Assembly (NCBI GenBank): GCA_017470945.1
Contig: JAFUXH010000024.1
Coordinates: forward strand, 1-44,387
Origin: Clostridia bacterium
GTDB taxonomy: Bacteria; Bacillota; Clostridia; Christensenellales; Aristaeellaceae
DNA: 44,387 bases
Direction of reading: 5' to 3'
Part shown: piece after piece, positions 19,744-43,275 of the stretch
Position numbering within the stretch: the stretch's first letter is position 1
Layout: each line of letters begins with the position of its first letter
Made by a program: the position numbers and the translations under genes
The notes under the pieces: model-generated
What the model saw: the letters and a program-made list of their open reading frames with translations, nothing else
Told to the model about the DNA's origin: nothing
Database searches by the model: none

Positions 19744-19755
19744 GAAAAACCCTCC

Positions 19756-20814: not shown

Positions 20815-20859
20815 GGCGCTGTCTTCCTTTCTGCGGGTTCAACGATCCCCTGTGGCGCC

Positions 20860-20888: not shown

Positions 20889-20913
20889 GAGAAAAATGAA
20901 AATAAAATCACTT

Positions 20914-20931: not shown

Positions 20932-20962
20932 AATATTTTTTGAAATTGATACAATTCGGGGC

Positions 20963-20990
20963 TTGACACATGGCGAAAATGGGATATAAT
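20963..20990 (+). promoter_or_regulatory. promoter of the uronide importer operon
   Basis: TTGACA (20963-20968) and TATAAT (20985-20990), 16-base spacing. The 5' leader to the binding-protein ATG is about 105 bases. Confidence 0.85.
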
Positions 20991-21101
20991 TGATTGTGTA
21001 AGGCAAACGGAATGTTCAGAACGAAACACAGATTGTAAATGTTTCCAACGTATCAAAACGGCGCGTCCGTTTTCGATAAAAATTTGAAGGAGGAACCCTA
21101 C

Positions 21102-22352: not shown

Positions 22353-22381
22353 GCCGTCGGTTTTTCCCAACGAACTTGAGG

Positions 22382-22420
22382 GCGGGAAGAGCGATTTGCC
22401 TCGCTCTTCCCGCTTTTTTT
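22382..22420 (+). terminator. intra-operon terminator after binding-protein gene
   Basis: GCGGGAAGAGCGA (22382-22394) and TCGCTCTTCCCGC (22401-22413) form a perfect 13-bp stem with a 6-base loop and a run of seven T. It should end most transcripts after the binding-protein gene and let a fraction pass to the permeases. Confidence 0.93.
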
Positions 22421-22455
22421 GAACAAGCCGCCATGCGGCGCGTGAAGGAGGCACT

Positions 22456-23454: not shown

Positions 23455-23471
23455 GGAAGGAGGCCGAAACC

Positions 23472-24332
23472 ATGTCTCAGGCAACAAACGTCCGGCAGAT
23501 CGGCGGGGAAAAGAAATTTCCTATCGGCAAGATCGTGCTGTATATCGTTCTGATCGCCCTCTCCGCATTTACCCTGATCCCCTTCGTGTGGATGATCTCG
23601 GCTTCCCTCAAGCTGGACCGGGAGGTATTCACCTTCCCCATGAAGTGGATTCCCGAAACCTTCCACTGGGAGAATTACAGCCTGATCTGGAGCAAGGTGC
23701 CCATGCTGACGTATTTCAAGAATACCGCCATCATCGCCATTTGCGTCACCTTCATCCAGACGCTCACATCCTCCTTCGCCGCTTACGCCTTCGCCAAGCT
23801 GCGCTTCAAGGGGCGCAACGTGCTGTTTATGGCGTATATCAGCACCATCGCGGTGCCCTGGCAGGCTTACATGCTGCCCCAGTTCATCCTGATGCGCTCC
23901 TTCGGGCTGTATGATCGGCTGCTGGCCATCATGGTGCTGCAGGCCTTCTCCGCCTTCGGCGTGTTCCTGATGCGGCAGTTCTATCAGAATATCCCCAACG
24001 AGCTGTGCGAGGCCGCCCGCATCGACGGCCTGAGCGAATACGGGATCTGGGCCCGCATCATGCTGCCCCTGTCCACCGCCGCCATCGCCACGCTGGTGAT
24101 CTTCACCTTCGTGGGCACCTGGAACGACTATATGGGTCCCATGATCTATCTGACCCGGGAGGAAAACAAAACCATTCAGATCGGTCTGCGCCGGTTCATC
24201 CAGGAAAATTCCAGCGATTATCATTTGATCATGGCGGCGTCGGTGGTGTCTTTGCTGCCCGTGTCCATCGTGTTCCTGGCCCTGCAGCGGTATTTCATCG
24301 AAGGCATCGCCACCAGCGGCCTGAAGGGCTAA
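23472..24332 (+). CDS. sugar ABC transporter permease, MalG/UgpE type
   Basis: 286 residues. The ATG at 23472 is chosen because GGAAGGAGG lies 8 bases upstream; a longer frame starts inside the spacer. The N-terminal helix is VLYIVLIALSAFTLIPFVWMI in pattern, and the EAA loop reads CEAARIDGLSEYGIWARIMLP near 190-210. It ends with the typical IEGIATSGLKG tail. It pairs with the upstream permease, 17 bp away. Confidence 0.93.
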   Translation: MSQATNVRQIGGEKKFPIGKIVLYIVLIALSAFTLIPFVWMISASLKLDREVFTFPMKWIPETFHWENYSLIWSKVPMLTYFKNTAIIAICVTFIQTLTSSFAAYAFAKLRFKGRNVLFMAYISTIAVPWQAYMLPQFILMRSFGLYDRLLAIMVLQAFSAFGVFLMRQFYQNIPNELCEAARIDGLSEYGIWARIMLPLSTAAIATLVIFTFVGTWNDYMGPMIYLTREENKTIQIGLRRFIQENSSDYHLIMAASVVSLLPVSIVFLALQRYFIEGIATSGLKG

Positions 24333-24366
24333 GGGTATCGACAAAAAGTCGATGCCTGGGAACAAC

Positions 24367-24390
24367 ATGAAGGGGCTGCGGCCCCTTCAT
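24367..24390 (+). other. perfect hairpin with UNCG-type tetraloop between importer and lyase genes
   Basis: ATGAAGGGGC (24367-24376), loop TGCG, GCCCCTTCAT (24381-24390). The closing C(UGCG)G is a member of the very stable UNCG tetraloops. No T-run follows, so it is more likely an RNA-stability or processing signal than a terminator. Confidence 0.6.
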
Positions 24391-24459
24391 GCATCCCGGG
24401 GTTTTGAAAATCTGAGCCTTTCTTCCGTGGAGAGGCTTTTGATCGGCAGGGGAGGAAAT

Positions 24460-26271: not shown

Positions 26272-26284
26272 AGGAGCGATTGGC

Positions 26285-28090: not shown

Positions 28091-29183
28091 GGAGGCCTTC
28101 CAAAAAGTCGCGGAGAAATACCGCCGCGGGGCCGAAAAGGCGGCGAAGGAGGGCATGATCCCCTATAAAAGCGAAAAGAGCGCCTGGATCCCCTCGCCCT
28201 ACGACGGCAACGGCTGGTGGACCGGGGGCTTTTACCCCGCCATTCTGTGGCAGATCTACGCCGCGAACAGGGCGGATTGGTGCCTCATCGAGGCGCGCCG
28301 GGTGGAAACGCTGCTGACGGAGGAATTCCGGGTCTTTTCCCATCTGAATCATGACGTGGGCTTTATGTATCTGCTTTCCTGCGGGGCGGATCACAAACTG
28401 ACGGGGGATGCCCAGGCCGCCCAGGATACCCTTCACGCGGCCAGCTTGCTGATGGGCAGGTTCAATCCCGTCGGCTATATCCGGGCGTGGAATCAGCCCT
28501 CCCAGGCGGGCTTTGCCATCATTGACTGCATGATGAATCTGTCGCTGCTCTATTGGGCTTCCCGCCAAACGGGCGATCCCCGCTTCGCCCACGCGGCCGA
28601 TCTGCACGCCCATACCGCGCTCCGGGAATTCCTGCGGCCGGATGGGTCGGTGAGCCATATCATCGAATTCGATCCCGAAACCGGGGCGCGGGTCAAGGAG
28701 CATCCGGGCCAGGGCTATGCCCTGGGTACCCAGTGGAGCCGGGGCCAGGCCTGGGGCCTGTATGGGTTCACGTTGGCGTATCTGAATACGAAAAAGCCGG
28801 AGTACCTGGACGCCGCCCGGAAAATCGCCGCCAATTTCATGGCCCATATTCGGCCCGACGGCCTGACGGACTGCGATTTTTGCCAGCCGGATACGGAGGA
28901 ACGCATCGACAATATCGCCGGAGCCATCGCCGCCTGCGGCCTGATGGAGCTGGAAAAGGCGACGGGCGACGCCGCTTACCGCACTGCCGCGCTGCGGCTG
29001 GTGGACGGATTGCTGGATCATTGCTGCGATTGGACGGGAGAACGCCTGGGCGTGCTGACCCACTGCACCGCCAGCTATCACGACGACGGAGCGGGACGGC
29101 ACACCAACATCGTGTACGGCGATTACTTTTTGATGGAGGCCCTGGTCAAATTGAACGGCACGGACCCCATGCTGTGGCTGTGA
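28074..29183 (+). CDS. unsaturated glucuronyl hydrolase, GH88
   Basis: Removes the 4,5-unsaturated uronate left by polysaccharide lyases. 369 residues, an alpha6/alpha6 barrel, near the 377 of the Bacillus enzyme UGL. The two key Asp residues are in HLNHDVGFMYL (D94) and AIIDCMMNLSLLYW (D151), which correspond to the known D88 and D149. Other family blocks are NGWWTGGFYPAILW, TQWSRGQAWGLYGF and DNIAGAIAACGLMEL. TTG start with AGGAGG 9 bases upstream, inside the end of the DUF2264 gene. Cytoplasmic. It is the strongest evidence that the locus makes unsaturated uronides. Confidence 0.93.
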   Translation: MRNRYEEAFQKVAEKYRRGAEKAAKEGMIPYKSEKSAWIPSPYDGNGWWTGGFYPAILWQIYAANRADWCLIEARRVETLLTEEFRVFSHLNHDVGFMYLLSCGADHKLTGDAQAAQDTLHAASLLMGRFNPVGYIRAWNQPSQAGFAIIDCMMNLSLLYWASRQTGDPRFAHAADLHAHTALREFLRPDGSVSHIIEFDPETGARVKEHPGQGYALGTQWSRGQAWGLYGFTLAYLNTKKPEYLDAARKIAANFMAHIRPDGLTDCDFCQPDTEERIDNIAGAIAACGLMELEKATGDAAYRTAALRLVDGLLDHCCDWTGERLGVLTHCTASYHDDGAGRHTNIVYGDYFLMEALVKLNGTDPMLWL

Positions 29184-29190
29184 GGTGGAT

Positions 29191-29970
29191 ATGATCAACA
29201 TTCAAGTGATAACGGGCGATGGGCAAATCATCGCCGGCGCGTCCCATGAAACGGAAGCCATGCTGTGCGTGGATCGGGCATATCAGCCGGGGGATCGGAT
29301 CGTCCTTTCCGGCAGCGAGCATATGCGGGCGCAGATGGATCAGGCGCTGATGGCGGGCGAAGTGTATTTGCCTGAGAAAACCATGACCTGGCTCGTCCCC
29401 GCCGGGGAGCACCGGCTGGCCTACGCGCCGGGAACGTTTGAAGCGCGGCGCCATGTGATCCGTGCCCGTGCGATGGGGGAGGAGGAGATCTTATCCCGCC
29501 GGAACCTGGCGCTGAATCCTGCCGATCTGCGGGGCGACACGGATTTTTATCCCCATTGCACCGCCAATGTGGAAACGCGGAACGAGGCGTGCTTTTGCGC
29601 CCGGAACGTGATCGACGGGATGCGCCTGAACACCAGCCACGGCGAATGGCCCTTTCAAAGCTGGGGTATCGGCGCCAGGGAGGATGCCTGGTGCCGCCTG
29701 GATTTTGGCCGCGAGGTGGAGGTGGACGAAATGGCCTTGACCCTGCGGGCGGATTTTCCCCATGACGCCTATTGGGTGGCAGGCCGTGTCGTGCTGTACG
29801 ACGGCGCCGACGTTTCCTTTTCTCTGCGCAAAACCGGCGATCGTCAGCGCATCCCCCTGGGCCGCCATATCGTGCGCTGGATGCGCCTGGAAAGCATGCA
29901 GAAAAGCGACGATCCCTCCGCCTTCCCCGCCCTGACGGAGTGGGAAGTATACGGAAAAGACCGCCGCTGA
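29191..29970 (+). CDS. cytoplasmic galactose-binding-like (F5/8 type C-like) domain protein
   Basis: 259 residues. The ATG at 29191 lies 8 bases after the GH88 stop, with AGGTGG just upstream. Residues about 1-105 are an unrecognised beta-rich section (ITGDGQIIAGASHETEAML). Residues about 110-257 look like a discoidin/F5-8C fold: a Cys/Asn-rich entry, ARNVIDGMRLNTSHGEWPFQSWGIG, then AWCRLDFGREVEVDEMAL and a closing TEWEVYG strand. Such folds bind sugars, but in secreted proteins; this one has no signal peptide. It could help an enzyme of the locus recognise imported oligosaccharides. Function unknown. Confidence 0.7.
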   Translation: MINIQVITGDGQIIAGASHETEAMLCVDRAYQPGDRIVLSGSEHMRAQMDQALMAGEVYLPEKTMTWLVPAGEHRLAYAPGTFEARRHVIRARAMGEEEILSRRNLALNPADLRGDTDFYPHCTANVETRNEACFCARNVIDGMRLNTSHGEWPFQSWGIGAREDAWCRLDFGREVEVDEMALTLRADFPHDAYWVAGRVVLYDGADVSFSLRKTGDRQRIPLGRHIVRWMRLESMQKSDDPSAFPALTEWEVYGKDRR

Positions 29971-31139: not shown

Positions 31140-31742
31140 TTATACCTTTCTCAGATAGAAGTCGCAGCGATCCGCGCCGGTGCCAAGCGTTCCAGTCCTT
31201 TTGAATTCAATTCCTGGGATGTTTCCGTAGCAGCGATTGTCGTTTGCACAAAATATCTTGGTCAGTTCAGGTCAGCCAAGTTCTGTGAAATACTTGTTGT
31301 ACGGGCAAGCGACAATATCCATTCTATATTCGCCCTTTTTCTTCGGATAGAACACATTTTTAAATCCGCTGTTAGGCCCGAACATCTTCTTTGTCAGAGG
31401 GTTCCAGATTTTGATGAACAGACTTTTCATGCCCGGCAGCTTCAGCATTTTTGCTATCTTCTTGCCCGCTGCCGTTGAATAGCCTATAGAAGCATCTTCA
31501 ATAACAGCATAGGCCTTCTCCTGGCTGGTCACCTCTTTGAGCGTCAGGTAGATCGCGGCAGAGGGAAAGATGTAGTTGTCGGTGTGCATATGAACACCTT
31601 TGGGCAGGTCAGGGCACTTCTCCATTATCTCGCCCAGCTTCTCCTCCGCTTTTCGCCACAGTTCATCGCTGTTTGGGAACTGCTTGTCCATTTCGTCCTT
31701 GATGAATAGCTTGGCTTTCATGATTTCCTTTGCGGTTTTCAT
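31140..31742 (-). pseudogene. L-2-amino-thiazoline-4-carboxylic acid hydrolase-like gene with an in-frame TGA
   Basis: An open frame of 156 codons (MKTAKEIMKAKLFIKDEMDK ... VACPYNKYFTELG) is stopped by TGA at 31272-31274. The same frame then continues with PELTKIFCANDNRCYG, IPGIEFKRTGTLGTG and ADRCDFYLRKV to a TAA at 31140-31142. These are typical C-terminal residues of the family (CPY..., PEL...FC, ...GxLGxGxxCDF). The full product would have 200 residues, the usual length. The TGA sits between Gly and Pro where relatives often have Cys, Ala or another small residue. Simple nonsense mutation is the likeliest reading, given decayed neighbours; selenocysteine is discussed as a finding. Confidence 0.7.
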
Positions 31743-31744
31743 GC

Positions 31745-32380
31745 TCAGCGTATCTCCTTTACCTTGTCGCCCACAACCCAGTAGTCGCAGATCCCGTCGC
31801 CATTCGCAATGGTATGCTCCCTATGCAGCTTTCCGTGCTGGAGCCGGAACATCACCTCGTCAGTTGAACACAGAGCGGGCATCAGCTCAGATATCCCTTC
31901 TCGCTCACAGAATTCACAAATCGGGCAGCGGGTGAAGTAATAGAAGCTGCCATCCTGATGCAGCGCTTCATCGAAGTTCACGACCCAGTTGACTGGATAA
32001 TCCTTGTCGTGGGCCTTGTACCACGTCTCATACTTTCGCATGTCCTGCTCCCACTTCTTCGGCGTCCTGTTCAGGTCGGTCATGCCGAAGATTGTACGGA
32101 GCAGTTTGCTTTCCAGCACGTCGGTCATCACCAACGCCATTTCATCAGGCGTGATCTTCTTCCCGCTACCGAGCCAGGCCGCCGCAAAGACATAGGCAAA
32201 GTATGCGTTCATTGCCATAGGGTTGCCGGGGCCAAGATCATCTGCGCGGAAGAGAAGGCGCCGATATTCTGCCTTGCCCCGCCGGATCGCCTGATCAGCC
32301 AATTCCTTATCAAACCGCTTTGTAATGCTCTTTTTCATCATCGGTGCAAAGAGCGTCCAGTAAACGCCAACATATTTCAA
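31745..32380 (-). CDS. L-2-amino-thiazoline-4-carboxylic acid hydrolase-like protein
   Basis: 211 residues, intact frame. TTG start at 32380 with GGGGTGA 6 bases upstream. The C-terminal part FTRCPICEFCEREGISELMPALCSTDEVM, then ANGDGICDYW, matches the family (Cys-Pro pair, ...LMPALC..., Cys-Asp near the end), and the N-terminal half is helical. The Pseudomonas enzyme opens the thiazoline ring on the way to L-cysteine, but most family members in gut Firmicutes are uncharacterised. It is followed 2 bp later by the TGA-interrupted paralogue, so the two were once an operon. Confidence 0.7.
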   Translation of the reverse strand: MKYVGVYWTLFAPMMKKSITKRFDKELADQAIRRGKAEYRRLLFRADDLGPGNPMAMNAYFAYVFAAAWLGSGKKITPDEMALVMTDVLESKLLRTIFGMTDLNRTPKKWEQDMRKYETWYKAHDKDYPVNWVVNFDEALHQDGSFYYFTRCPICEFCEREGISELMPALCSTDEVMFRLQHGKLHREHTIANGDGICDYWVVGDKVKEIR

Positions 32381-32502
32381 ATGCTTTCACCCCACTCCCA
32401 GCCGTTTCCGGCGTCAGTTTTATGCCGCACAAAACGAAAGCCACAGACGGTACCACCCCGGCAGAGCGCTTTGGCGCGGATGAAATTCGTATACACTGCG
32501 CT

Positions 32503-32622
32503 TCATATCCGTTCCTCTTTCCGCGGCCAGGGCCAGCAACGATTGACTCGCTTGCAGTAATCATTGTATTCCTTACCATATAGTTTTCTCAGCCACTTCT
32601 CCTCCGTTGCTTTCATCAACAA
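32503..32622 (-). pseudogene. C-terminal remnant of an isoprenylcysteine methyltransferase-family protein
   Basis: A 39-codon frame, TTG TTG ATG after AAAGGAAG, reads ATEEKWLRKLYGKEYNDYCK, then RVNRCWPW. This is the end of ICMT-family membrane methyltransferases (EE..L...+G.EY..Y...V.R..PW). The membrane helices that should come before it are absent, so only the tail is left. It is read in the same direction as the ATC-hydrolase-like genes. Confidence 0.6.
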
Positions 32623-32732
32623 GGTTAATCTTCCTTTTGTTAGAAATTGCTAACCAATGGTCAAAATGAAAGCCCACTGCACAGCCATTCACCATGGAGT
32701 ACTGTTAAGCGGGCTGTTAGTAATCGCTTACT

Positions 32733-32761
32733 ATTATACTTCAAATAGTTTGCATTTTCAA
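32733..32761 (-). promoter_or_regulatory. promoter of the decayed minus-strand cluster
   Basis: TTGAAA (32756-32761) and TATAAT (32733-32738) on the minus strand with 17-base spacing. It would transcribe the methyltransferase remnant and the ATC-hydrolase-like genes. A leader of about 100 bases follows. Confidence 0.65.
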
Positions 32762-33031
32762 GATGCAGTGCGGTTTATCGTCGTCTTCTCCGTCAGGTCG
32801 GGTATCGATTTCTCGTATTGTTGTTGACGAATCGCGTTCCACTCCAGGAACTCCTTCATCATTATTCCAAAGGCGCGGTCTGCGAATGGCGCTTTAAGAC
32901 CATGTGCGGCATGCGGGTGTTCACTCGTGAAGCATGAACGATCCAACATAGAAAGGTATCGCCGATGCGCCCAAGCTAACGATCCGGAATATCATTCGAT
33001 TCATTGTCATCACCGTTTTGATATTTGCCGC
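32762..33031. other. intergenic stretch, nothing supported
   Basis: Between the promoter of the decayed cluster and the terminator of the sulfatase operon. Short open frames exist on both strands, but none has a ribosome site or recognisable residues; it may be scar sequence. Confidence 0.5.
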
Positions 33032-33064
33032 AAAAAAAACTGCCGGAGCATACGTTTCCGGCAG
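33032..33064 (-). terminator. terminator of the GH28-sulfatase operon
   Basis: On the minus strand CTGCCGGA (33057-33064) and TCCGGCAG (33040-33047) form an 8-bp stem with a 9-base loop, followed by eight T, 10 bases after the sulfatase stop. Confidence 0.92.
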
Positions 33065-33074
33065 CAGGGCTTGC

Positions 33075-34523
33075 TTATGTTTTTCCGTTGTTTTGATAAC
33101 CGTTGGGGGGCGGCCAATGCAGACCGCGCTGATTATACAAGCCATAATCCGGCGAAGCCTGATATTCCCCGGCATCAAAGCCGCAAAGCTTTCCATCCCG
33201 CACCCATTGTAAGTCGTCGCCATGCAGATGGTCGATCAGATAAGCGGTCAGCTTTTCCTGGATATCTCGACAGGCAGGCTGATCGAAAAGGTTTTTCTGT
33301 TCTTTACTGTCCGTTTTAAGATCAAACATTTGGAATGTGTTTCCGCAGGGATAATAAATGAGCTTATAGCGGCCATCCGTGGCCATGCGGGTGGCTTTTC
33401 TTCCTTCGCCGATCTCGCCGTACAGCATATCCCGCTCCTGGGACAAGAGGTTGATTCCTTCCACCGTGTCGGGCATATCAATCCCACACAAAGAAAGCAA
33501 AGTGGGCATCACATCCTCCAGGCAGGCGATCTTATTCGTGACTGTTCCGCGCCAGGAATTCAACGGCTCGCCAGAAAGGATCAGCGGCACGTTGGCGGAG
33601 CCTTGGTAGAAGGTGCGCTTGGCAACCATGCCATGGGAAAATAACATATCCCCATGATCGCTGGTAAAGGCAATCACCGTGTCTTTCAGCAGACCGCATT
33701 CCCGCAGGGTGCCGATCAGCATGCGGATTTGATAATCGATCAGGGTACACTGGGCGTAAAACGCCCGTTTGGCCCGAATGATTTCCTTCTGCGAATAGCT
33801 GACCGCCTGCTCCCGCAGCAGGCACTGAATGACCGAATCATCGCACCAGTTATCCGCGGCTTCCGGCAAATCAATTTCATCATCCGTGTACATATCCCAG
33901 AAGGACTGAAGGGGCACCAGGGGCGGATGGGGGAAATTATACGATAGATAGAAGAAAGCGGGGCGGGTAGGGTCCCTGCGCTTGATCTGGCGCATCATTT
34001 CCCGGGTGGCCCAAACGGTGGGATGATGCCGATCCTCCAAATGCCAGGGGCGGGTCAAATAATTGTTGTTTCCCATTCCGTGCAGGAATTCTTCTCCCGC
34101 ATAGCCCTGTTCGCCCAAATAGATTTGGTAATCATCCACCGCGCCCAGTTCATACCGGCCTTCTTCCATCAGCGTCACATCGTCAAAGCCGATCCTGTTC
34201 CGTTGCGGATATACATGCAGCTTTCCCACCGCATATGCCTGGTACCCCGCGTTCCGAAACGCCTGGGCCAGGGTGGTCACGTTTGGCATCGGCATCCTGT
34301 CGGAATACACTCGATCCCCATGGGAAGCGGGAAACATACCCGTCATCAGGCTGCGCCGGGCCGGAATACACACCGGGCAGGTGCTCAGGCATTGGGTAAA
34401 ACGAATCCCATCCGCCGCGAGCTGATCCAGCGTGGGCGTCATCACCGTGGGATGCCCCGCGCATCCCATGAGGGACGCAAACCAGTGATCCGTGCAAATC
34501 AAGAGTACATTTTTCTTTCCCAC
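33075..34523 (-). CDS. sulfatase, S1 (formylglycine-dependent) family
   Basis: Hydrolyses a sulfate ester. 482 residues of alkaline-phosphatase fold. The N-terminal metal site is LLICTDHWFASLMGC. The active-site motif is C52-I-P-A-R within CPVCIPARRSLMTG, and C52 must become formylglycine. Other marks are AVGKLHVYPQ, FNFPHPPL-like YNFPHPPLVPLQ and the second metal site VIAFTSDHGDMLFSHGM. No signal peptide, so it is cytoplasmic and, being Cys-type in an anaerobe, needs the anSME maturase found at 41.1 kb. It follows the GH28 gene by 36 bp, in the same transcript. The sugar specificity is unknown. Confidence 0.95.
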   Translation of the reverse strand: MGKKNVLLICTDHWFASLMGCAGHPTVMTPTLDQLAADGIRFTQCLSTCPVCIPARRSLMTGMFPASHGDRVYSDRMPMPNVTTLAQAFRNAGYQAYAVGKLHVYPQRNRIGFDDVTLMEEGRYELGAVDDYQIYLGEQGYAGEEFLHGMGNNNYLTRPWHLEDRHHPTVWATREMMRQIKRRDPTRPAFFYLSYNFPHPPLVPLQSFWDMYTDDEIDLPEAADNWCDDSVIQCLLREQAVSYSQKEIIRAKRAFYAQCTLIDYQIRMLIGTLRECGLLKDTVIAFTSDHGDMLFSHGMVAKRTFYQGSANVPLILSGEPLNSWRGTVTNKIACLEDVMPTLLSLCGIDMPDTVEGINLLSQERDMLYGEIGEGRKATRMATDGRYKLIYYPCGNTFQMFDLKTDSKEQKNLFDQPACRDIQEKLTAYLIDHLHGDDLQWVRDGKLCGFDAGEYQASPDYGLYNQRGLHWPPPNGYQNNGKT

Positions 34524-34559
34524 AAAACGGCCTCCTTTGATGCACCAATGACAACGTGC

Positions 34560-35822
34560 TTATTCCATTTGATAACTGACCGATTCATCAGCGTTGAGCA
34601 AAGCCCCCTGAAGATGAAACACAGCTGTATTGACGAAGCGTACATTTGTTGCGTTGCGCAGGAAGAAGCCTTCTCCCGCCATCCTGGGGCAATCATCCAT
34701 CATGGCGGGGGTATCGCCCGGGGCGTCCTTGTCCATTTCTACCCGGATGTCCCGGAGGGTGATTCCTTCCACCGGTTGTTCGCTGAGCCCATAGAAAAAC
34801 CCTGCGCAGGCGGAGCACCGCTTTACGGATACCCCGGAAATGGATACGTCCCGAAGGGCGGGGGTGGTTTCATCCACGGGCATGGGCAGCTTGCTGCGTA
34901 CGTGATCCGCTTTCCCTCCGGGCCCGCAGAAATAATACATATTGAATACGAAGGGACACATCACTTGATCCATGATAAGATTGAATACCTGCAAGCCTTC
35001 CACTGTGCCGCCCCGTCCCCGCCGCGTTTTTAAGCGGATGCCCCGGTCGGTTTCATGAAAGATGCAATTGCTGACCACGATGTTTCGGATGCTGCCGCTG
35101 GTTTCGCTGCCCAGCACGATGCCGCCGTGACCATGCAGCAAATGGCAGCCGGTAATGATGATCCGCTCACAGGGCGGCGGGTTATCGGAAAGTTCTGTGC
35201 CCGCTTTCAGGGTAATGCAGTCATCGCCCACATCCACGGTGCAGTCGGTAATTTTGACATCCTGGCAGCTGTCTGGGTTGATGCCGTCCGTATTGGGGGA
35301 ATCCCAGGGATTGTGAATGGTGATGCCCTGAATGGTCACGTCCTGGCAGCAGAGGGGATGCACCGTCCAGGAGGGGGAATTGAGCAGGGCGACGCCTTCT
35401 ATTTTGATATGCCTGCAATGATCGAAGCATATCAGCCGGGGGCGGGGATAAGAAAGCGCTCCTTTCTTGAACCGCTGCCACCAATAGCTGCCCTGGCCAT
35501 CCAGGATGCCATCGCCAGTCACGGTGATATTTTCCGCTCCGCAGGCGTAAATGCAAGCCTGATGTACCTGCGCGGTTTTTCCTCGATCCTGCATGGTCAC
35601 CAGAGGGAATTTGCTTTCGTCCGCGTGAAAGACCAATTGAGCGCCGTTCTGAATGCGCAGGGTGATATGGCTTTCCAAGCGGATAGGCCCGGTGAAGTAC
35701 CTTCCTGGGGGAACAAGCAATTCTCCGCCCCCTTGTTCCGTTAATGTACGGACCGCTGTCTGAAAGGCTTCTGACCAATCTGATCCCTCATGGGCCAAGG
35801 CGCGGTATTCGGTAATGTTCAT
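34560..35822 (-). CDS. glycoside hydrolase family 28 (polygalacturonase-like)
   Basis: 420 residues, right-handed beta-helix. The start MNITEYRALAHEG follows GGAGGAGGG by 8 bases. All four GH28 signatures are present: NTDGI (177-181), VGDDCITLK with the catalytic Asp pair (D200, D201), GHGG (231-234, His 232) and RGIRLK (260-265). GH28 enzymes invert alpha-galacturonide or rhamnogalacturonan bonds. This one has no signal peptide and is co-transcribed with a sulfatase, so the substrate is likely an imported, sulfated uronic-acid oligosaccharide rather than bulk pectin; that is inference. Confidence 0.93.
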   Translation of the reverse strand: MNITEYRALAHEGSDWSEAFQTAVRTLTEQGGGELLVPPGRYFTGPIRLESHITLRIQNGAQLVFHADESKFPLVTMQDRGKTAQVHQACIYACGAENITVTGDGILDGQGSYWWQRFKKGALSYPRPRLICFDHCRHIKIEGVALLNSPSWTVHPLCCQDVTIQGITIHNPWDSPNTDGINPDSCQDVKITDCTVDVGDDCITLKAGTELSDNPPPCERIIITGCHLLHGHGGIVLGSETSGSIRNIVVSNCIFHETDRGIRLKTRRGRGGTVEGLQVFNLIMDQVMCPFVFNMYYFCGPGGKADHVRSKLPMPVDETTPALRDVSISGVSVKRCSACAGFFYGLSEQPVEGITLRDIRVEMDKDAPGDTPAMMDDCPRMAGEGFFLRNATNVRFVNTAVFHLQGALLNADESVSYQME

Positions 35823-35845
35823 ATAGCAGGCCCTCCTCCATAAAG

Positions 35846-35874
35846 ATATTAGCATAACGTTATTTTAATTTCAA
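35846..35874 (-). promoter_or_regulatory. promoter of GH28-sulfatase operon
   Basis: TTGAAA (35869-35874) and TAATAT (35846-35851) on the minus strand with exactly 17 bases between; the spacer contains the operator ATAACGTTAT. Confidence 0.8.
35854..35863. promoter_or_regulatory. operator 1, ATAACGTTAT palindrome
   Basis: Perfect 10-base palindrome between the -35 and -10 boxes of the GH28 promoter. The same word is on the facing promoter, so a repressor, most likely the LacI protein at 42.2 kb, should control both directions. Confidence 0.75.
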
Positions 35875-35961
35875 GAGACAATTGAAGAAAATATGCGGCA
35901 TTTTTGATCAAATTCAGGGAAAATTTGTTTAATTCAGAAAATTTTAAGACAAAATTTATAA

Positions 35962-35975
35962 AAATAACGTTATTT
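35962..35975. promoter_or_regulatory. operator 2, AAATAACGTTATTT palindrome
   Basis: Perfect 14-base palindrome with the same ATAACGTTAT core, ending 3 bases before the -35 box of the plus-strand sulfatase promoter. Centres of the two operators are 110 bases apart, which would allow looping. Confidence 0.75.
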
Positions 35976-35978
35976 CTA

Positions 35979-36007
35979 TTGACAATGAAAAAACTTTCGT
36001 GTATAAC
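35979..36007 (+). promoter_or_regulatory. promoter of sulfatase-importer operon
   Basis: TTGACA (35979-35984) and TATAAC (36002-36007), 17-base spacing, about 66 bases before the sulfatase ATG. Confidence 0.82.
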
Positions 36008-36073
36008 GGAGATGGTTTTCATTGCGAGGGTAAAAACAAAGGAATCGTTGTTTCTGTGAGAAGGTGAAAATGC

Positions 36074-37417
36074 ATGGCCGTTCCCAACATCATTTTCTAT
36101 TTTTCCGATCAGCAGCGCTGGGATACCATGGGCTGCTACGGGCAAAAGCTGCCTGTCACCCCTGTGCTGGATGAACTGGCAAAGGAAGGCACGCTGTTTG
36201 AAAACGCCTTTACCTGCCAGCCGGTATGCGGCCCCGCCCGGGCCTGCCTGCAATCCGGAATGTACGCCACGGAAGTGAACTGCCACAAAAATCATCGGAT
36301 TCTGCCTGAAAATATGGATACCCTGGCCCGCCGCCTGAATGACGCGGGATACCTGACCGCCTACATCGGCAAATGGCACCTGGCCAGCAATGAAGAAGCT
36401 TCCTATCGGGATCAAGCCGTACCTGCGGAGCGCCGGGGCGGTTACCAATATTGGATGGCCGCGGACGCGTTGGAAGTCACGTCCCACGGCTATAACGGAT
36501 ATGTTTTTGACGGCAATATGAACCGCCATGATTTCGTAGGCCACCGAGTGGACTGCATCAACGCTTACGCCATTGATTTTTTGCATCAGTACGCTGAGCG
36601 CCGGGAGGAGCGGCCTTTCTTCTTGTTTGTATCCCAATTGGATCCCCATCACCAGAATGATCATAACCGGTATGAAGGGCCGGACAACAGCAAGCGCCGC
36701 TTCGACGATTATGAGGTGCCTCCCGATCTGGTGGGCACGGCCGGAGACTGGCGGGAGAATTTCCCGGATTACTTGGGCCAGTGCAATCTGCTGGATCAGA
36801 ACGTGGGAAAAATGATGGACACTTTGGAGGAATTGGGGCTTAAAGAGAATACCGTATTCTTTTACTCTGCCGACCATGGCAGCCATTTCCGCACCCGGAA
36901 CGCGGAATACAAGCGATCCTGCGAGGATGCCTGCCTGCATATCCCGCTCATCGCCTGGGGCGGCCCCTTCCGGGGGAGAGGAAAAATCAGCGAGCTGGTC
37001 AGCCTGATCGATATGCCGCCCACCATCCTTGATACGGCCGGAACCCAGGTGCCCGCCCATTACCGGGGCCATTCCCTGATCCCCCTGGCGGAAGGACAAA
37101 AGGAAAACTGGCCTGACGCCGTGTACGCCCAGATCAGCGAAGCGGAAACCGGAAGAACAGTACGTACCGCGGATTATAAATACGCCGTGCGGGCCCCGGA
37201 ATTCCACATGGAGGAGCCCTATTCCGCGGTGTATGTGGAAAACAAGCTGTATGATTTGAAAAACGATCCTGGAGAGCGGGTCAATTTGATCGACCGGCCG
37301 GAATACGAAGAAATCAGGGCGGATATGCGGCGCAGGCTGCGCGCTTTCATGGCCTTGGCCCATGAACCGCAAGCGGATATTCTCCCCGCCGGAGAAAGGA
37401 AGGATGAGCATCCATGA
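36074..37417 (+). CDS. sulfatase, S1 (formylglycine-dependent) family, second copy
   Basis: 447 residues. N-terminal metal site NIIFYFSDQQRWDTMGCYG; active-site C52-G-P-A-R in CQPVCGPARACLQSG; then YIGKWHLASN and the second metal site FYSADHGSHF. It shares only the family motifs with the minus-strand sulfatase, so the two probably remove sulfate from different positions or sugars. No signal peptide. GAAGGTGA lies 8 bases before the ATG. Its TGA overlaps the ATG of the first permease, tying desulfation to import. Needs the radical-SAM maturase for activity. Confidence 0.95.
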   Translation: MAVPNIIFYFSDQQRWDTMGCYGQKLPVTPVLDELAKEGTLFENAFTCQPVCGPARACLQSGMYATEVNCHKNHRILPENMDTLARRLNDAGYLTAYIGKWHLASNEEASYRDQAVPAERRGGYQYWMAADALEVTSHGYNGYVFDGNMNRHDFVGHRVDCINAYAIDFLHQYAERREERPFFLFVSQLDPHHQNDHNRYEGPDNSKRRFDDYEVPPDLVGTAGDWRENFPDYLGQCNLLDQNVGKMMDTLEELGLKENTVFFYSADHGSHFRTRNAEYKRSCEDACLHIPLIAWGGPFRGRGKISELVSLIDMPPTILDTAGTQVPAHYRGHSLIPLAEGQKENWPDAVYAQISEAETGRTVRTADYKYAVRAPEFHMEEPYSAVYVENKLYDLKNDPGERVNLIDRPEYEEIRADMRRRLRAFMALAHEPQADILPAGERKDEHP

Positions 37418-38358
37418 CCACGATCACCGAGAGAAAAGCCCATGCCGGCTCCTTTTGGCAGTTCCTGAAGCGGGATTTTCAGCGCCATTGGGGCATTTAC
37501 CTCATGTTCGTTCCGGTATTTATCTATTTCATCATTTTCCATTACCTTCCCCTCTATGGGGCGCAGATCGCTTTCAAGGATTACATTCCCATCCGCGGTA
37601 TCGAGGGCAGCAAATGGGTGGGCTTCAAGCATTTTTCCAGCTTCTTTAACGGGCTGTACTTTGGCCGCTTGATGCGGAATACCCTGCTGCTCAGCCTGCT
37701 GCAATTGCTCTTTGGTTTTCCGGCGCCCATCATCCTGGCGCTGCTCATGAACGAGCTTCGCTGCCGCCCCTTCAAGCGGGTGGTGCAGACGGTCACCTAT
37801 CTTCCTTATTTCGTGTCCCTGATGGTGGTTTGCAGCCTGGTGATCAATTTCACTTCGGTGAACGGTCTGATCAACGACATCATCGTGGCCTTGGGCGGAA
37901 AAAGAAGCAGCTTGCTTTTAAACCCCGCCAACTATCGCACCATCCACGTGGCCAGCGGTATCTGGCAGAACATGGGCTGGAATTCCATCGTGTACATGGC
38001 AGCCCTGTCATCCGTGGATCAGGAATTGTATGAGGCAGCGGTGATCGATGGGGCCAATCGTTGGAAACAAACCCTGCACGTTACTCTGCCCGGCATCGTG
38101 CCCACCATTGTGATCATGCTGATCATGCGCCTGGGCCAGATCATGAACGTTGGCTTTGAAAAGGTGATCCTGCTGTATAACGATGCCACCCTGGAAACGG
38201 CCGACGTGATTTCCACCTATGTTTACCGGCGCGGTCTTCTGGACAATGCCTACAGTTTTTCCGCGGCAGTGGGCCTGTTCAATTCTGTGGTGAACACGGT
38301 GCTTCTGGTCGGAGCCAATACCATCAGCCGCAAGCTGAACGAAACCAGTTTGTTCTGA
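37414..38358 (+). CDS. ABC transporter permease, LplB/MsmF type
   Basis: 314 residues, six helices beginning at HWGIYLMFVPVFIYFIIF. The EAA loop is YEAAVIDGANRWKQTLHVTLP near 205-225. LplB-type permeases belong to importers for complex, often pectic or glycan-derived oligosaccharides with large binding proteins. ATG overlaps the sulfatase stop by 4 bases. Confidence 0.93.
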   Translation: MTTITERKAHAGSFWQFLKRDFQRHWGIYLMFVPVFIYFIIFHYLPLYGAQIAFKDYIPIRGIEGSKWVGFKHFSSFFNGLYFGRLMRNTLLLSLLQLLFGFPAPIILALLMNELRCRPFKRVVQTVTYLPYFVSLMVVCSLVINFTSVNGLINDIIVALGGKRSSLLLNPANYRTIHVASGIWQNMGWNSIVYMAALSSVDQELYEAAVIDGANRWKQTLHVTLPGIVPTIVIMLIMRLGQIMNVGFEKVILLYNDATLETADVISTYVYRRGLLDNAYSFSAAVGLFNSVVNTVLLVGANTISRKLNETSLF

Positions 38359-38370
38359 GGAGGTGAGCGT

Positions 38371-39252
38371 ATGCATTTGAAGCGAACCAACGGTGAAAAA
38401 GTGTTTACCGTGTTTAACGTCCTGTTCCTGCTGCTCATTTCTTTCATCACCGTTTATCCCATGCTCTATGTGATTTACGCCTCCGTTAGTGAGCCGGTGC
38501 AGCTGGTGAAGGCCCGGGGCATTTTGTGGCATCCCCTGGGCTTTACATCGGCGGCGTATAAAATGGTGATTCAAAATCGGTCCATCCTGACCGGCTACGG
38601 CAACACCCTGTTCATCGTGTTCGTCGGCACGGCGCTGAACGTGTTTATCACTTCGCTGGCTGCGTATGTGCTGTCCCGGGATGGATACTTTCTCAAACGT
38701 TTTTTGAATTTCTTTGTGGTGGTCACCATGCTGTTCAGCGGCGGGCTGATTCCCTTTTACATCACGGTGCAGCGGTTGAATCTGCTGGATTCCCTGTGGG
38801 CGCTGATCCTGCCTACCCTGCTGAGCACCTACAATCTGATGATCATGCGCACCTCCTTCGCCGCTATTCCCGTCAGCCTGGAGGAAAGCGCCAAGCTGGA
38901 CGGGGCCAATGACTTTGTGGTGCTCACCCGGATCATCCTGCCCCTGTCCAAGGCGGTGATCGCGGTGATGATCCTGTTCTATGGCGTATCCCATTGGAAT
39001 TCCTGGTTCAACGCCGCCATTTTCCTGAATGATCGCAGCAAATACCCCTTGCAGCTGGTGCTGCGGGAAATCCTGATTTCCAATGACACCAGCGCCATGG
39101 GCAACGACCTGGGGGCCAATGACCAGGAAATGATCGCGGAAAACATCAAGTACGCCACCATCGTGGTAGCTACCCTGCCCATCATGTGCGTTTATCCCTT
39201 CGTGCAAAAATACTTTGTCACCGGCGTGATGGTGGGTTCGGTTAAAGGATGA
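38371..39252 (+). CDS. ABC transporter permease, LplC/MsmG type
   Basis: 293 residues, six helices; NVLFLLLISFITVYPMLYV is the first. The EAA-type loop is EESAKLDGANDFVVLTRIILP near 170-190, and the end GVMVGSVKG is typical. GAGGAGGTGA lies 4 bases before the ATG. Confidence 0.93.
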   Translation: MHLKRTNGEKVFTVFNVLFLLLISFITVYPMLYVIYASVSEPVQLVKARGILWHPLGFTSAAYKMVIQNRSILTGYGNTLFIVFVGTALNVFITSLAAYVLSRDGYFLKRFLNFFVVVTMLFSGGLIPFYITVQRLNLLDSLWALILPTLLSTYNLMIMRTSFAAIPVSLEESAKLDGANDFVVLTRIILPLSKAVIAVMILFYGVSHWNSWFNAAIFLNDRSKYPLQLVLREILISNDTSAMGNDLGANDQEMIAENIKYATIVVATLPIMCVYPFVQKYFVTGVMVGSVKG

Positions 39253-39307
39253 CGCATACAATTCTGAACTACGGCGCTTTAGCGCTGAAATAAAGGAGGT
39301 TCTTCTC

Positions 39308-40897
39308 ATGAAAAGATTCCTGTCCCTGCTGCTTGCGGCGATGCTCCTCATGGGCGTCAGTGCCAGCTTCGCGGAAACGCTGCCGCTGGTGGATGAACCC
39401 ATTACCCTGACCTGCTTCATGGAAACGGACGTAAAATGGTCTGCCACCAAAAACAGCGTGGCCGAGGTGGGCTCCTATCAGGTGATCATGGACAAAACCG
39501 GCATCACCGTCGACTTCCAACATCCAGCCGCCGGCCAGCAGAAAGAGCGCTTTAACCTGCTGCTCAACTCCACCCAGCTGCCCGATATGATTTATTACAA
39601 CTGGGCCAACGTGCCCGGCGGCCCCGCCAAGTACATTGACGATGGCTACATCCTGCCCCTGAATGAATACCTGGAAAAATGGGCCCCTAACTTCATGGCT
39701 TACATGGAAAAGTATCCCGATGTTCGCAAGCAGAGCGTGCTGGACGACGGCACTTTCTATATGTTCCCCATGCTGCGTATTGATGAAGAATCCGGCGGCG
39801 GTCAGTGGTTCAAGGTGACTGGCTTCCAGATCCGCCAGGATTGGCTGGACAAGCTGGACCTTCAGATGCCCACCACCAAGGATGAACTGCACGACGTGCT
39901 GGTGGCCTTCCGGGACGGCGATCCCAACGGCAACGGCGAAAAGGATGAAATTCCCTTCTCCTCCACCAAAGACGCCAACTGTAACATCGAAGGCTTTGCC
40001 GGTATGTTCGGTGTGCTCAAGGGCTTCTTCATGGATGGCGATGCGGTGAAATACGGTCCCGCCGAAGCTGGCTACAAGGATTATCTGGAAACTATGCGCC
40101 AGTGGTATGAAGAAGGCCTGATCGACCCCGAATACATGATGAACGATGCCACGTCCCTGACCTCGAAGATGGTCAACAATCAGGTGGGCTGCACCATTTA
40201 CACCCTGAATGGCGGCATGGGCACCTGGAGCAACATGATGGATGAGGATTTCAACATCGTCGCCATGCCTTGGCCTTCTGTGGATGGGGAAACCCCCGCT
40301 TACGCCACCATCAACGAATACAATAAAGTGGTCACCGGCGTGGGCGTGGCCATCACCTCCTCCTGCGCGCAGGATCCCAAGAAGTTGGAAGCGGCCATCA
40401 AATTCCGCGACTACTTCTACAGCCCCCAGGGCGTGATCGATTCCAACTTTGGCATCCTGGGCGAAAGCTACACCATGGAAGGCGACCAGGCTGTGTTCAC
40501 CGACGCCGTGCTGCATAACGATAAGGGCCTGACCACCACCCAGGCGCTGTCCCAGTATGCCCTGTCCGCGGCCAACGACGCTATGGTGAAAACCGCCATG
40601 TACTTCAAGCAGATCACCCTGATGCTGGATAACCAGAAGGCCTCTCAGCCCGTTTGGAATGAATGCGATAGTTCCCTGCTGGTTCCCAATATTTCTCAGA
40701 CCGCTGAGGAAAGCACCTTCATTGCCGATAGGATGAATGAAATTGAAACCTACGTGAACGAAATGACCATGAAATTCATCCTGGGTCAGGAATCCCTGGA
40801 TAATTTCGATGCGTTCACCAAAAACATTGAAAAGCTGGGCATCGGCGACGTGCTCAAGCTCAAGCAGGATGCTTACAACCGTTATCAGCTGCGCTGA
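39308..40897 (+). CDS. extracellular solute-binding protein, large LplA-like
   Basis: 529 residues, start after AAAGGAGGT. Signal peptide MKRFLSLLLAAMLLMGVSAS, probable cut near FA-ET, no lipobox Cys. The mature chain has LNSTQLPDMIYYNW, WLDKLDLQMPTTKDELHDVL, DGDPNGNGEKDEIPFS and YNKVVTGVGVAITSSC, as in the large binding proteins that go with LplB/LplC permeases. DGDPNGNGEKDE is a calcium-binding-like loop seen in this group. It takes up the oligosaccharide that the sulfatases and GH28 then process. Last gene before a terminator. Confidence 0.93.
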   Translation: MKRFLSLLLAAMLLMGVSASFAETLPLVDEPITLTCFMETDVKWSATKNSVAEVGSYQVIMDKTGITVDFQHPAAGQQKERFNLLLNSTQLPDMIYYNWANVPGGPAKYIDDGYILPLNEYLEKWAPNFMAYMEKYPDVRKQSVLDDGTFYMFPMLRIDEESGGGQWFKVTGFQIRQDWLDKLDLQMPTTKDELHDVLVAFRDGDPNGNGEKDEIPFSSTKDANCNIEGFAGMFGVLKGFFMDGDAVKYGPAEAGYKDYLETMRQWYEEGLIDPEYMMNDATSLTSKMVNNQVGCTIYTLNGGMGTWSNMMDEDFNIVAMPWPSVDGETPAYATINEYNKVVTGVGVAITSSCAQDPKKLEAAIKFRDYFYSPQGVIDSNFGILGESYTMEGDQAVFTDAVLHNDKGLTTTQALSQYALSAANDAMVKTAMYFKQITLMLDNQKASQPVWNECDSSLLVPNISQTAEESTFIADRMNEIETYVNEMTMKFILGQESLDNFDAFTKNIEKLGIGDVLKLKQDAYNRYQLR

Positions 40898-40941
40898 TCG
40901 ATCCGGCTGGTCCGCAGTATCACACTAAAACATCATCATGA

Positions 40942-40973
40942 AGAGCAGGCCGCCGCGGTGGCCTGCTCTTTTT
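40942..40973 (+). terminator. terminator of sulfatase-importer operon
   Basis: AGAGCAGGCC (40942-40951) and GGCCTGCTCT (40960-40969) with an 8-base loop, followed by TTTT. Confidence 0.9.
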
Positions 40974-41057
40974 CACAAGATATTTGGTAATTGCATTTTT
41001 CCGCTGTTTGTGGCATCATTGTATGGGAACGCAATCATGAAATTTTGAGGGATTGGG

Positions 41058-42188
41058 ATGAAACATGTATCGCTGTTGATCAAACCGGCGTCTGGCTTAT
41101 GCAATATGCGCTGCGCCTATTGCTTTTATGCGGATGAAGCTGAGCATCGAACAGAAAAGAACGCTGGAATGATGACCTTGGAAACTGCTGAATCGTTGAT
41201 TCACAACGCGTTTTCAAGCGTAGAAAAGCGGGGCACCATTTCTTTTTCTTTTCAGGGCGGGGAACCTACCCTGGCGGGACTGGATTTCTTCCGGAAGTTT
41301 GTGCGCATGGCGGAGGAACGGAATCCGGGAGACGTAGCCGTTCAGTGGGGGATTCAAACCAACGGTCTGCAATTAAACGAAGAATGGGCAGCGTTTCTGG
41401 CGAGCCATCGGTTTTTAACAGGGATTTCGATGGATGGGGACGCGGCGTCCCATGATGCTTTCCGCCGCGATGCCCACGGGGAAGGCACATACCAACGGGT
41501 GAAGCGGAATCTTGAGATGCTTCTGCGTTCCAACGTGGAAACCAATATTTTATGCGTTGTCAACAGCCGCACCGCGAAAGCGCCCAAGAGAACTTACCGT
41601 TCCTTGAAAGCGTTGAATACCGGCTTTCTTCAGTTTATTCCATGCCTGGACCCCCTGGATAAATCTCGTGGAAGCATGAAATGGTCCCTTACGCCGGAGG
41701 ATTACGGGCAATTTTTGAGCGGAACATTCGATGAATGGTTCCTGGATTGGCAAAATGGCCAATATACCAGCATTCGCTTTTTTGATGATCTTGTGCATCT
41801 TGCCCTGGGGATGCCCCCCAGCACCTGCGCATCCTGTGGACAATGCGGAGGTTATTTCGTGGTGGAAGCGGATGGCAGCGTCTATCCGTGTGACTTCTAT
41901 GCGCTGGATGAATGGCGTTTGGGAAGCGTACAGGAATCTTTCAGAAATCTGATGCATTCGGAGAAAATGCGTTCTTTCCTCCAGCGTTCCGCGCGTAAAC
42001 CTGCCTCCTGCGGCACTTGCCCCTATTTCGCCCTGTGCCGTGGCGGCTGTCCAAGAGACTGGATCGAAGGAGATCGAGGACCGGAAAACTACTATTGCAA
42101 AGCATTTGCCAAGATGTTTCAATATATAGGGCCTAAGCTGATGTACATCGTTCAGCAAGAGAGAAGCGCACGATACAGAATGAGATAG
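41058..42188 (+). CDS. anaerobic sulfatase-maturating enzyme (radical SAM, SPASM)
   Basis: Oxidises the active-site Cys (or Ser) of sulfatases to formylglycine without oxygen. 376 residues. The radical-SAM cluster site is C15-N-M-R-C19-A-Y-C22, followed by FSFQGGEPTLAGLDFF (the GGEP motif). The C-terminal SPASM domain has the auxiliary-cluster cysteines, in CASCGQCGG, VYPCDFYALDEWRLG and CGTCPYFALCRGGCPRDW. This layout and QTNGLQL / GISMDGDAASHDAFR match anSMEs. It has its own spacer after a terminator. Two Cys-type sulfatases in the same locus are its obvious clients. Confidence 0.95.
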   Translation: MKHVSLLIKPASGLCNMRCAYCFYADEAEHRTEKNAGMMTLETAESLIHNAFSSVEKRGTISFSFQGGEPTLAGLDFFRKFVRMAEERNPGDVAVQWGIQTNGLQLNEEWAAFLASHRFLTGISMDGDAASHDAFRRDAHGEGTYQRVKRNLEMLLRSNVETNILCVVNSRTAKAPKRTYRSLKALNTGFLQFIPCLDPLDKSRGSMKWSLTPEDYGQFLSGTFDEWFLDWQNGQYTSIRFFDDLVHLALGMPPSTCASCGQCGGYFVVEADGSVYPCDFYALDEWRLGSVQESFRNLMHSEKMRSFLQRSARKPASCGTCPYFALCRGGCPRDWIEGDRGPENYYCKAFAKMFQYIGPKLMYIVQQERSARYRMR

Positions 42189-42222
42189 TTTTTTAAGATT
42201 TCAATGCGGAGATGACAGAAAA

Positions 42223-43275
42223 ATGGAAAAAACGCAGCCAACTTTAAAAGACCTCGCAGAGCGGCTGAACCTGTCTGTGGGAACCGTTCAGCGGGCTTTG
42301 AATAACAAGGGCGGGTATAAGCCAGAAACACAGCGCCGCGTTCTGGAAGAAGCGGAGAAAATTGGTTATACGGTGAATCCTGCCGCCTCCGCGCTTCGCA
42401 GGCCGCCCGTTTCTATTGCCGTGGTTCTGCCTGAACCGATTGATCACAACAAGTATTTTTATCAATATGTTTGGCAGGGCATCGAATATGCTTATAAAGA
42501 ATTGGCCGTTTTTCAAGTCGGTTATCAGAAAATGTTCATTCACCCGCATTCCAGCGATTTTTGCGATGTGTTGGAGCAATTATCCGCTTCAGATAAAATC
42601 CAAGGAATCATTACGGTATTGAATCGTGACGCGCGTTTTGATGACATCATGCGTCGCTTTGCGCAGCGGGGTATTCCTGTTTCCTTCATCAACGCGGGGA
42701 ACACGTTAAACGATACACGTTTTTCTGTGAGCACGGGGGGCCTGGCAGCGGACATTTTGGCATCCACACATACAAGCGTTCCTGGTCAAGTCCTTTTGCT
42801 GGGCGGATCGTATGAAAACGAGCTTCATCGCCGACGGGCAATGGATTTTTCACAGAAACTGCGGGAGTACTGCGCAAATATTTCCGTTCTGGAAATTCAT
42901 GAGTACCATGATTTGAAAAAACTGCGCGGCACAATAGCTTCAATGTTAAAGAACTTGGATACGCTGACGGGCATCTTCTCCGTTTCGACGCGCGAAACCT
43001 TGTGTATGTGCCAGGCCGTATCAGAAATGGGCTTTTCTGGAAAAATGATGACAATCGGTGTGGATGCGTTTCCGGAATTGCTTCCATTTTTCCAGAACGG
43101 AACCTTAACCTCCAGCATCTATCACTATCCCACCCGGCTGGCTTATTCGGTGTTTTATCAATTGGTATCCCAACTGACAAGTATTCCAACCCCTTATGTG
43201 GTGCAATCTATTCCGGCGGTGCCGATCTTCCGCTCAAACGCAGACTTTTTTTGCAAAGCAGAGGGAATTATATAA
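42223..43275 (+). CDS. LacI family regulator of the sulfatase locus
   Basis: 350 residues. Helix-turn-helix TLKDLAERLNLSVGTVQRAL (residues 7-26), hinge NPAASALRR near 52-60, then a ligand domain (about 63-345) with VSIAVVLPEPIDHNKYF and MTIGVDAFPELLPFFQNG. The VGTVQRAL variant is that of sugar-sensing LacI proteins of the AraC-independent type. It is the only DNA-binding protein in this locus, so it is the best candidate for the two ATAACGTTAT operators at 35.85 and 35.97 kb. It starts 34 bp after the maturase gene and is likely co-transcribed with it. Confidence 0.92.
   Translation: MEKTQPTLKDLAERLNLSVGTVQRALNNKGGYKPETQRRVLEEAEKIGYTVNPAASALRRPPVSIAVVLPEPIDHNKYFYQYVWQGIEYAYKELAVFQVGYQKMFIHPHSSDFCDVLEQLSASDKIQGIITVLNRDARFDDIMRRFAQRGIPVSFINAGNTLNDTRFSVSTGGLAADILASTHTSVPGQVLLLGGSYENELHRRRAMDFSQKLREYCANISVLEIHEYHDLKKLRGTIASMLKNLDTLTGIFSVSTRETLCMCQAVSEMGFSGKMMTIGVDAFPELLPFFQNGTLTSSIYHYPTRLAYSVFYQLVSQLTSIPTPYVVQSIPAVPIFRSNADFFCKAEGII

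Follow-up and report, generated by a model that had tools for sequence, protein, structure and literature searches.

Background

Gut-bacterial sulfatases of known role act mostly on mucin, glycosaminoglycans (GAGs) or algal glycans. In the GAG cluster Smon0120-0128 of Streptobacillus moniliformis, excerpts of the report (PMC5430744) place a putative aldouronate-type ATP-binding cassette (ABC) importer together with a sulfatase predicted to be cytoplasmic. Among tripartite ATP-independent periplasmic (TRAP) transporters, excerpts of a second report (PMC7660916) give 4MHF as a binder of D-glucuronate and D-galacturonate, 4N15 as a modelling template, and Arg150, Arg170 and Asn210 as residues conserved among hexuronate binders. 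Here we describe a locus of Clostridia bacterium (Christensenellales; Aristaeellaceae; assembly GCA_017470945.1) on contig JAFUXH010000024.1, which was analysed at its full length of 44,387 bases and is called the window below. The locus encodes a glycoside hydrolase of family 28 (GH28), two Cys-type sulfatases (named S1 and S2, both of sulfatase family S1), an LplABC-type importer with its solute-binding protein (SBP), an anaerobic sulfatase maturase (anSME) and a LacI-family regulator (Table 1). Judging from sequence and gene context, chances seem about even that these genes form a LacI-controlled regulon which imports a sulfated uronate-containing oligosaccharide and desulfates it in the cytoplasm, with S1 acting on sulfated hexuronate and GH28 cutting galacturonide linkages.

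The window is one entire contig of a 2.99 Mb genome estimated as 95% complete and 8% contaminated. Relatives were sought in 308 genomes of the family, and a broader genome collection was scanned with one protein. The loci retrieved from relatives are draft contigs, in which assembly errors are possible. Genes of neighbour loci were called by a crude scoring of open reading frames (ORFs) that leaves genes shorter than 100 aa uncalled and calls some antisense frames; the counts given below come instead from HMM and tblastn searches.

Results

The genes on the two strands diverge from one promoter region, with GH28-S1 on one side and S2-LplB-LplC-SBP-anSME-LacI on the other, and this region holds two copies of the palindrome ATAACGTTAT. 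Searching the family genomes with the LacI protein (E<=1e-60) returned seven genomes including its own, and the six other orthologs are all in operon with, or adjoin, a sulfatase gene. The regulator accompanies S2 in G253, G260 and G076, and faces DctP-DctQ-DctM-S1 in G141, G307 and G293, DctQ being assigned from size and position alone. The 10-base core of ATAACGTTAT is present in all six LacI-ortholog loci and in none of the 62 other loci examined, and the recognition helix S(V/I)GTVQRAL is common to all seven regulators. We infer from this comparison that LacI binds both palindromes of the window. In the source genome itself, the 13-base form AATAACGTTATTT was found, with at most one mismatch, at the two promoter sites and at one other place (C102).

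Among the 308 family genomes, close full-length S1 proteins occur, besides the window's own, only in G141 and G307 (73% and 74% identity), and G293 holds an S1 fragment truncated by a contig end (85% over 34 residues). In all three (loci L061, L101 and L118) S1 lies downstream of the DctP/DctM genes that face the LacI gene. The best PDB matches of the L061 DctP include the TRAP binding proteins 4ng7, 4x04, 4xfe, 4x8r, 4n15 and 4mhf; we take the ligands of 4x04, 4xfe, 4x8r and 4ng7 to be uronates. Two of the three hexuronate-binding residues, the arginines, are kept in the L101 DctP, with numbering transferred by spacing in the printed alignments. Its orthologs adjoin a uronate-type TRAP transporter under a like LacI protein and operator; the most likely substrate of S1 is therefore a hexuronate that carries sulfate, either free or terminal. 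A remoter S1 relative (46%) is accompanied by TctA, TctB and TctC.

Other transport genes were seen near related sulfatases. In L107, L076 and L105, S2-like or S1-like sulfatases share a stretch with TctA-type organic-acid transporters. Pairs of chromate-transporter (CHR) genes lie near sulfatase or anSME genes in L118 (7111-8246), L107 (7906-9134) and L074 (573-1654), L107 also has a TauE/SafE gene, and the start of a CHR gene is legible by eye next to the S1 remnant of L104. It is possible that the CHR and TauE/SafE proteins are sulfate or sulfite exporters.

S2 is more widespread, being found at E<=1e-100 in 23 of the 308 genomes including its own. Its locus was retrieved from 20 of the 22 other genomes (G022 and G031 were left out). 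Across these 20 stretches, LplB and LplC were both matched somewhere in six (those of L102 belong to a different, distant importer), an anSME in five, the LacI ortholog in three, and CE8 and GDSL genes in one. L063 and L066 have the gene order S2-LplB-LplC-second sulfatase-SBP, and L067 has it as far as its contig end. The sulfate-removing core is common to relatives, and the pairing with GH28 is found in one genus only. Among single S2 loci, the ortholog of L062 (G048; 8769-10082) has an in-frame stop codon, that of L065 adjoins DUF5722 and amidohydrolase genes, and that of L064 shares its stretch with DUF4838, GDSL and macro-domain genes.

Both sulfatases score above the cut-offs of PF00884 and PF16347 and carry at C52 a Cys-type maturation motif (CIPAR in S1, CGPAR in S2), as formylglycine-type S1 sulfatases do. 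Pfam sulfatase models searched across the entire genome matched these two proteins alone. The anSME has CxxxCxxC, further cysteines and a SPASM domain (PF13186), as expected of a maturase; it scores 376.9 on TIGR03942 (cut-off 349.45) and 388.8 on the narrower model NF010321, under the cut-off of 441, and of three TIGR03942 matches in the genome it alone is above cut-off. The nearest PDB relatives of S1 are 9koq, an arylsulfatase, and 7oz8 (BT1918, S1_46); that of S2 is 7p24 (BT3177, S1_11), its best solved relative being a GlcNAc-6-sulfatase. On the NCBIfam model for Mn-dependent arylsulfatases S1 reaches 261, the cut-off being 850. The first-pass annotation, made from the sequence alone, had listed the same set of genes and noted that no enzyme has a signal peptide. 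Family matches and motifs bear out the list, with all eight genes confirmed at their coordinates, and inspection of the N-termini by eye likewise revealed no signal peptide on any enzyme of the locus.

The GH28 protein matches PF00295 with 149.4 bits (cut-off 22.9), among solved structures its best relative is the exo-polygalacturonosidase 3jur, and it scores 353 bits on NCBIfam PglA, below the cut-off of 600. Its catalytic motifs NTDG, GDD, GHG and RLK are intact in the clade alignment, in agreement with membership of family 28, whose motifs we take to be NTD, DD, GHG and RxK. Translation likely starts at 35822 rather than at 35855, since a purine-rich ribosome-binding site precedes MNITEY and a palindrome lies at 35854. 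At E<=1e-105 the clade is present in 39 of the 308 genomes including its own. The comparison set comprised 41 other loci, 39 from the 38 other family genomes plus one each from Enterococcus durans and E. ratti; nine are shorter than 10 kb. At least one pectin-type gene occurs in 25 of the 41 (CE8, PF01095, in 14; GDSL in 9; GH88/GH105-type, PF07470, in 22), so that pectin genes are the usual partners of this clade. No sulfatase was found beside GH28 in any of the 41 by HMM or tblastn; just 19 of these loci reach further than 5 kb from GH28 in both directions. The earlier suggestion that the substrate or the GH28 specificity may be new is not supported as stated, given how common the clade is and what its neighbours are.

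Within this clade the GH28 of the window forms a subclade with those of L043 and L034 (support 1.0), separate from the two other members from its genus, L085, in a locus of CE8/GDSL/GH105 type, and L088, on whose short contig no pectin gene was found. L034 has no pectin gene within the retrieved stretch, and L043/L054 is truncated at a contig end. An assignment as a mere pectin-operon GH28 was rejected. The queries used on relatives found no CE8, GDSL or GH105-type gene in the window, where a different GH88 lies at 28074-29183, and the ten genes from 31272 to 43275, when scanned, included none of the CE8, GDSL or GH88/GH105 type expected in a pectin-oligosaccharide locus. The protein deviates from the clade at nine positions whose conservation is 85% or higher, five of them by conservative swaps; two of its residues, T204 and T241, also occur in a fragment from RUG14140 and so are not peculiar to a sulfatase setting.

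The importer consists, as in LplABC-type systems, of an SBP and two permeases. No ATPase is among the genes called in the locus, no search having been aimed at one. For the SBP neither Pfam nor NCBIfam gave a match; its PDB matches are to AlgQ1/AlgQ2 and to Smon0123-type binding proteins, and these relatives suggest that its ligand is an acidic oligosaccharide.

Two relatives record the history of the locus. L104 (G260, same genus) retains the promoter together with its two palindromes, which are spaced by 110 bases. To the left of this promoter stand, in the same order as in the window, residues 1-48 and the C-terminus of GH28 and only residues 411-482 of S1; to its right stand S2 (90%), then an intact anSME (74%) and LacI (75%). 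After S2, short stretches were recognised by eye as the beginning of LplB and the end of an SBP, tblastn giving only a weak piece of LplB. The eroded ends of GH28 and S1 imply that the arrangement is older than the window genome. In L102 (G253) S2 is followed by the C-terminus of the SBP (451-524, 76%) and then by LacI, beyond which a different radical-SAM/SPASM gene occupies the place of anSME; neither GH28 nor S1 was found before the contig ends. Parts of the locus have been lost in both relatives.

Table 1. Features of the sulfatase-GH28 locus (positions in the window)
Feature	Position	Strand	Evidence
S1, Cys-type S1-family sulfatase; orthologs elsewhere sit after a TRAP transporter (L061, L101, L118)	33075..34523	-	PF00884, PF16347, CIPAR
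GH28, exo-polygalacturonase-like, start probably 35822	34560..35822	-	PF00295; PDB 3jur best; PglA 353 bits, below cut-off
Operator-like palindrome ATAACGTTAT, toward GH28	35854..35863	.	core present in all six LacI-ortholog loci
Operator-like palindrome ATAACGTTAT, toward S2	35964..35973	.	core present in all six LacI-ortholog loci
S2, Cys-type sulfatase of family S1 at the conserved core of the locus	36074..37417	+	PF00884, PF16347, CGPAR; 23/308 family genomes including own
LplB-type permease	37414..38358	+	PF00528
LplC-type permease	38371..39252	+	PF00528
Solute-binding protein (SBP), AlgQ/Smon0123-like	39308..40897	+	PDB matches; no Pfam or NCBIfam match
Anaerobic sulfatase maturase (anSME), sole above-cut-off match genome-wide	41058..42188	+	TIGR03942
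LacI-family regulator	42223..43275	+	PF00356, PF13407; 6 further genomes of the 308 have an ortholog

A separate glycan locus occupies 17998-29970 of the window. It encodes a GH2 protein, a second LacI protein, an SBP, permeases, a lyase matching PL33 structures, a DUF2264 (GH154-like) protein with PDB matches to 8oi4 ('beta-galactosidase') and 9o4u (glucuronate dehydratase), the GH88 mentioned above, which matches unsaturated glucuronyl hydrolases, and a 261-aa protein without Pfam match. The lyase and the unsaturated uronyl hydrolase lie about 3 kb from the sulfatase locus, in a locus with its own LacI gene and no match to the palindrome. Between the two loci are two neighbouring genes of the ATC-hydrolase family (PF14196; 31272-32380) and, at about 32380-33075, decayed frames that presumably resemble isoprenylcysteine methyltransferase. 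The N-terminus of a serine recombinase (PF00239; 44095-44387) is truncated at the contig end, and a mobile element may adjoin the locus. PADLOC gave no match on two unnamed ORFs.

Discussion

The regulon would work as follows. Without inducer, LacI bound at the ATAACGTTAT sites would repress GH28-S1 as well as S2-LplB-LplC-SBP-anSME-LacI. Once expressed, the SBP and permeases would import a small acidic oligosaccharide, powered by an ATPase presumably encoded elsewhere, and the anSME would turn the active-site Cys of both sulfatases into formylglycine, a reaction established for its family. S2 and S1 would then strip sulfates, probably in the cytoplasm and possibly in that order, and GH28, probably exo-acting, would free galacturonate-type residues to enter uronate metabolism via UxaC, of which the source genome has one copy. 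The first-pass annotation had proposed import, desulfation and cutting of a sulfated uronate oligosaccharide; the single regulon, import and likely cytoplasmic desulfation are supported, and the S1-TRAP linkage adds a uronate clue, while the part on GH28 is not supported as it was put. It had also named a lack of conservation of the gene pair elsewhere as what would refute its reading, and this is largely what was found in the 41 other GH28 loci, 19 of them with more than 5 kb on each flank, the eroded L104 of the same genus being the exception.

Several observations weigh against this reading. An intact GH28-sulfatase pair is present in no other genome examined, and S2 and LacI persist in L104 and L102 despite a broken or absent importer, GH28 and S1, which argues that the parts are not strictly interdependent. 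The closest solved relative of S1 and its top NCBIfam model, the latter below cut-off, are both arylsulfatases. Three distant S1 relatives (L078, L079 and L080; 36-37%) are surrounded by unrelated genes, and the third hexuronate residue of the L101 DctP, at the Asn210 position, is Gln. In a distant alignment the SBP lacks the sulfate-holding Arg204, Lys210 and Arg393 of Smon0123, which are gapped or substituted, and also Trp284, Gln405, Tyr409 and Glu410; of the residues Arg204, Lys210, Arg393 and Trp284 that mark Streptobacillus-type GAG import, none was recovered in that alignment. Likeness to Smon0123 was accordingly rejected as evidence. Finally, a reversed-pattern control of the palindrome search gave two forward and two reverse sites, so the count in the source genome is not above background; the evidence for the palindrome rests on the comparison across relatives rather than on that count.

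The main rival explanation, which we consider unlikely, is that the sulfatases and importer serve the glucuronate-glycan locus at 17998-29970, the substrate being a sulfated GAG-like chain and GH28 a bystander or accessory. The short distance between the loci speaks for it, as do the matches of the neighbour locus to PL33, glucuronate dehydratase and unsaturated glucuronyl hydrolase, the SBP being nearest to the GAG-disaccharide binder Smon0123, and the GlcNAc-6-sulfatase related to S2. However, the neighbour locus has its own LacI and importer and no palindrome match, GH28 and S2 have a promoter in common, the Smon0123 ligand residues are not kept in the SBP, and PL33, GH154 and unsaturated glucuronyl hydrolase (UGL) queries match none of the 20 S2 loci and none of the 7 S1 loci.

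We think it quite unlikely that the sulfatases cleave sulfate esters other than those of glycans, for example aryl sulfates, while GH28 takes ordinary pectin fragments, the two sharing only a promoter. The proximity of S1 to 9koq, a promiscuous arylsulfatase of E. faecium, the pectin-linked broader GH28 clade, and the TRAP and TctABC transporters near S1 relatives, which carry small organic acids rather than chains, would fit such a division; yet an oligosaccharide-type ABC importer stands with the sulfatases in the window, L063, L066 and L067, and the DctP of the TRAP system belongs to the hexuronate type. A recent chance insertion of GH28-S1 next to an unrelated sulfatase cassette could account for the GH28 loci in which no sulfatase was found (41 of 41), for S2 and LacI without GH28 and S1 in L102 (G253) and for the serine recombinase at the contig end, but it is very unlikely given that a second species keeps remnants of GH28 and S1 at this very site, along with the GH28-side palindrome, and that S1 orthologs elsewhere bear the same operator.

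Returning to the regulon for sulfated uronate oligosaccharides, a further proposal is more tentative, and we hold it to be doubtful: that the regulator and S1, with either a uronate-type TRAP or an ABC importer, form a dedicated pathway for sulfated hexuronates such as galacturonate sulfate, that S1 founds a group of sulfo-hexuronate sulfatases, and that GH28 acts on sulfated or freshly desulfated galacturonides. If this were true, sulfated galacturonan would be a real nutrient for these bacteria. The sulfatases with a galacturonate-type enzyme, and the uronate-type TRAP transporters of relatives, suggest that sulfated uronic acids are a class of nutrient. Since the palindrome is common to both versions, one ligand should induce ABC and TRAP modules alike. 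The locus also offers a defined system of two sulfatases and one maturase, and the Pfam search found no further sulfatase in its genome.

Each component was already known. In the literature searched on GH28 with sulfatases and on sulfated pectin, which covered titles and abstract openings and is no proof of absence, neither the whole combination nor a LacI/operator pair common to ABC-type and TRAP-type sulfatase modules was found described. The Firmicute pectin-oligosaccharide loci with CE8, GDSL and GH88/GH105-type genes (e.g. L035, L085 and L055 of Enterococcus durans) have a GH28 of the same clade; those loci are without sulfatase and anSME, and the same queries find none of their pectin genes in the window. 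By sequence, the closest solved relative of S1 is the Enterococcus faecium arylsulfatase EfAS (9koq; excerpts of PMC12421950), although S1 falls far under the arylsulfatase cut-off given above. Smon0120-0128 resembles the locus in its related SBP and importer and in a sulfatase predicted, in the excerpts cited, to act on imported oligosaccharides in the cytoplasm; that cluster has lyases and GH88 and no GH28, and the window SBP does not keep the Smon0123 ligand residues. The DctP encoded beside S1 orthologs is closest to the group of hexuronate TRAP transporters such as STM3169 and Bpro_3107 (excerpts of PMC7660916) and keeps two of their three ligand residues; it differs from them in having Gln at the Asn210 position and in being linked to a sulfatase.

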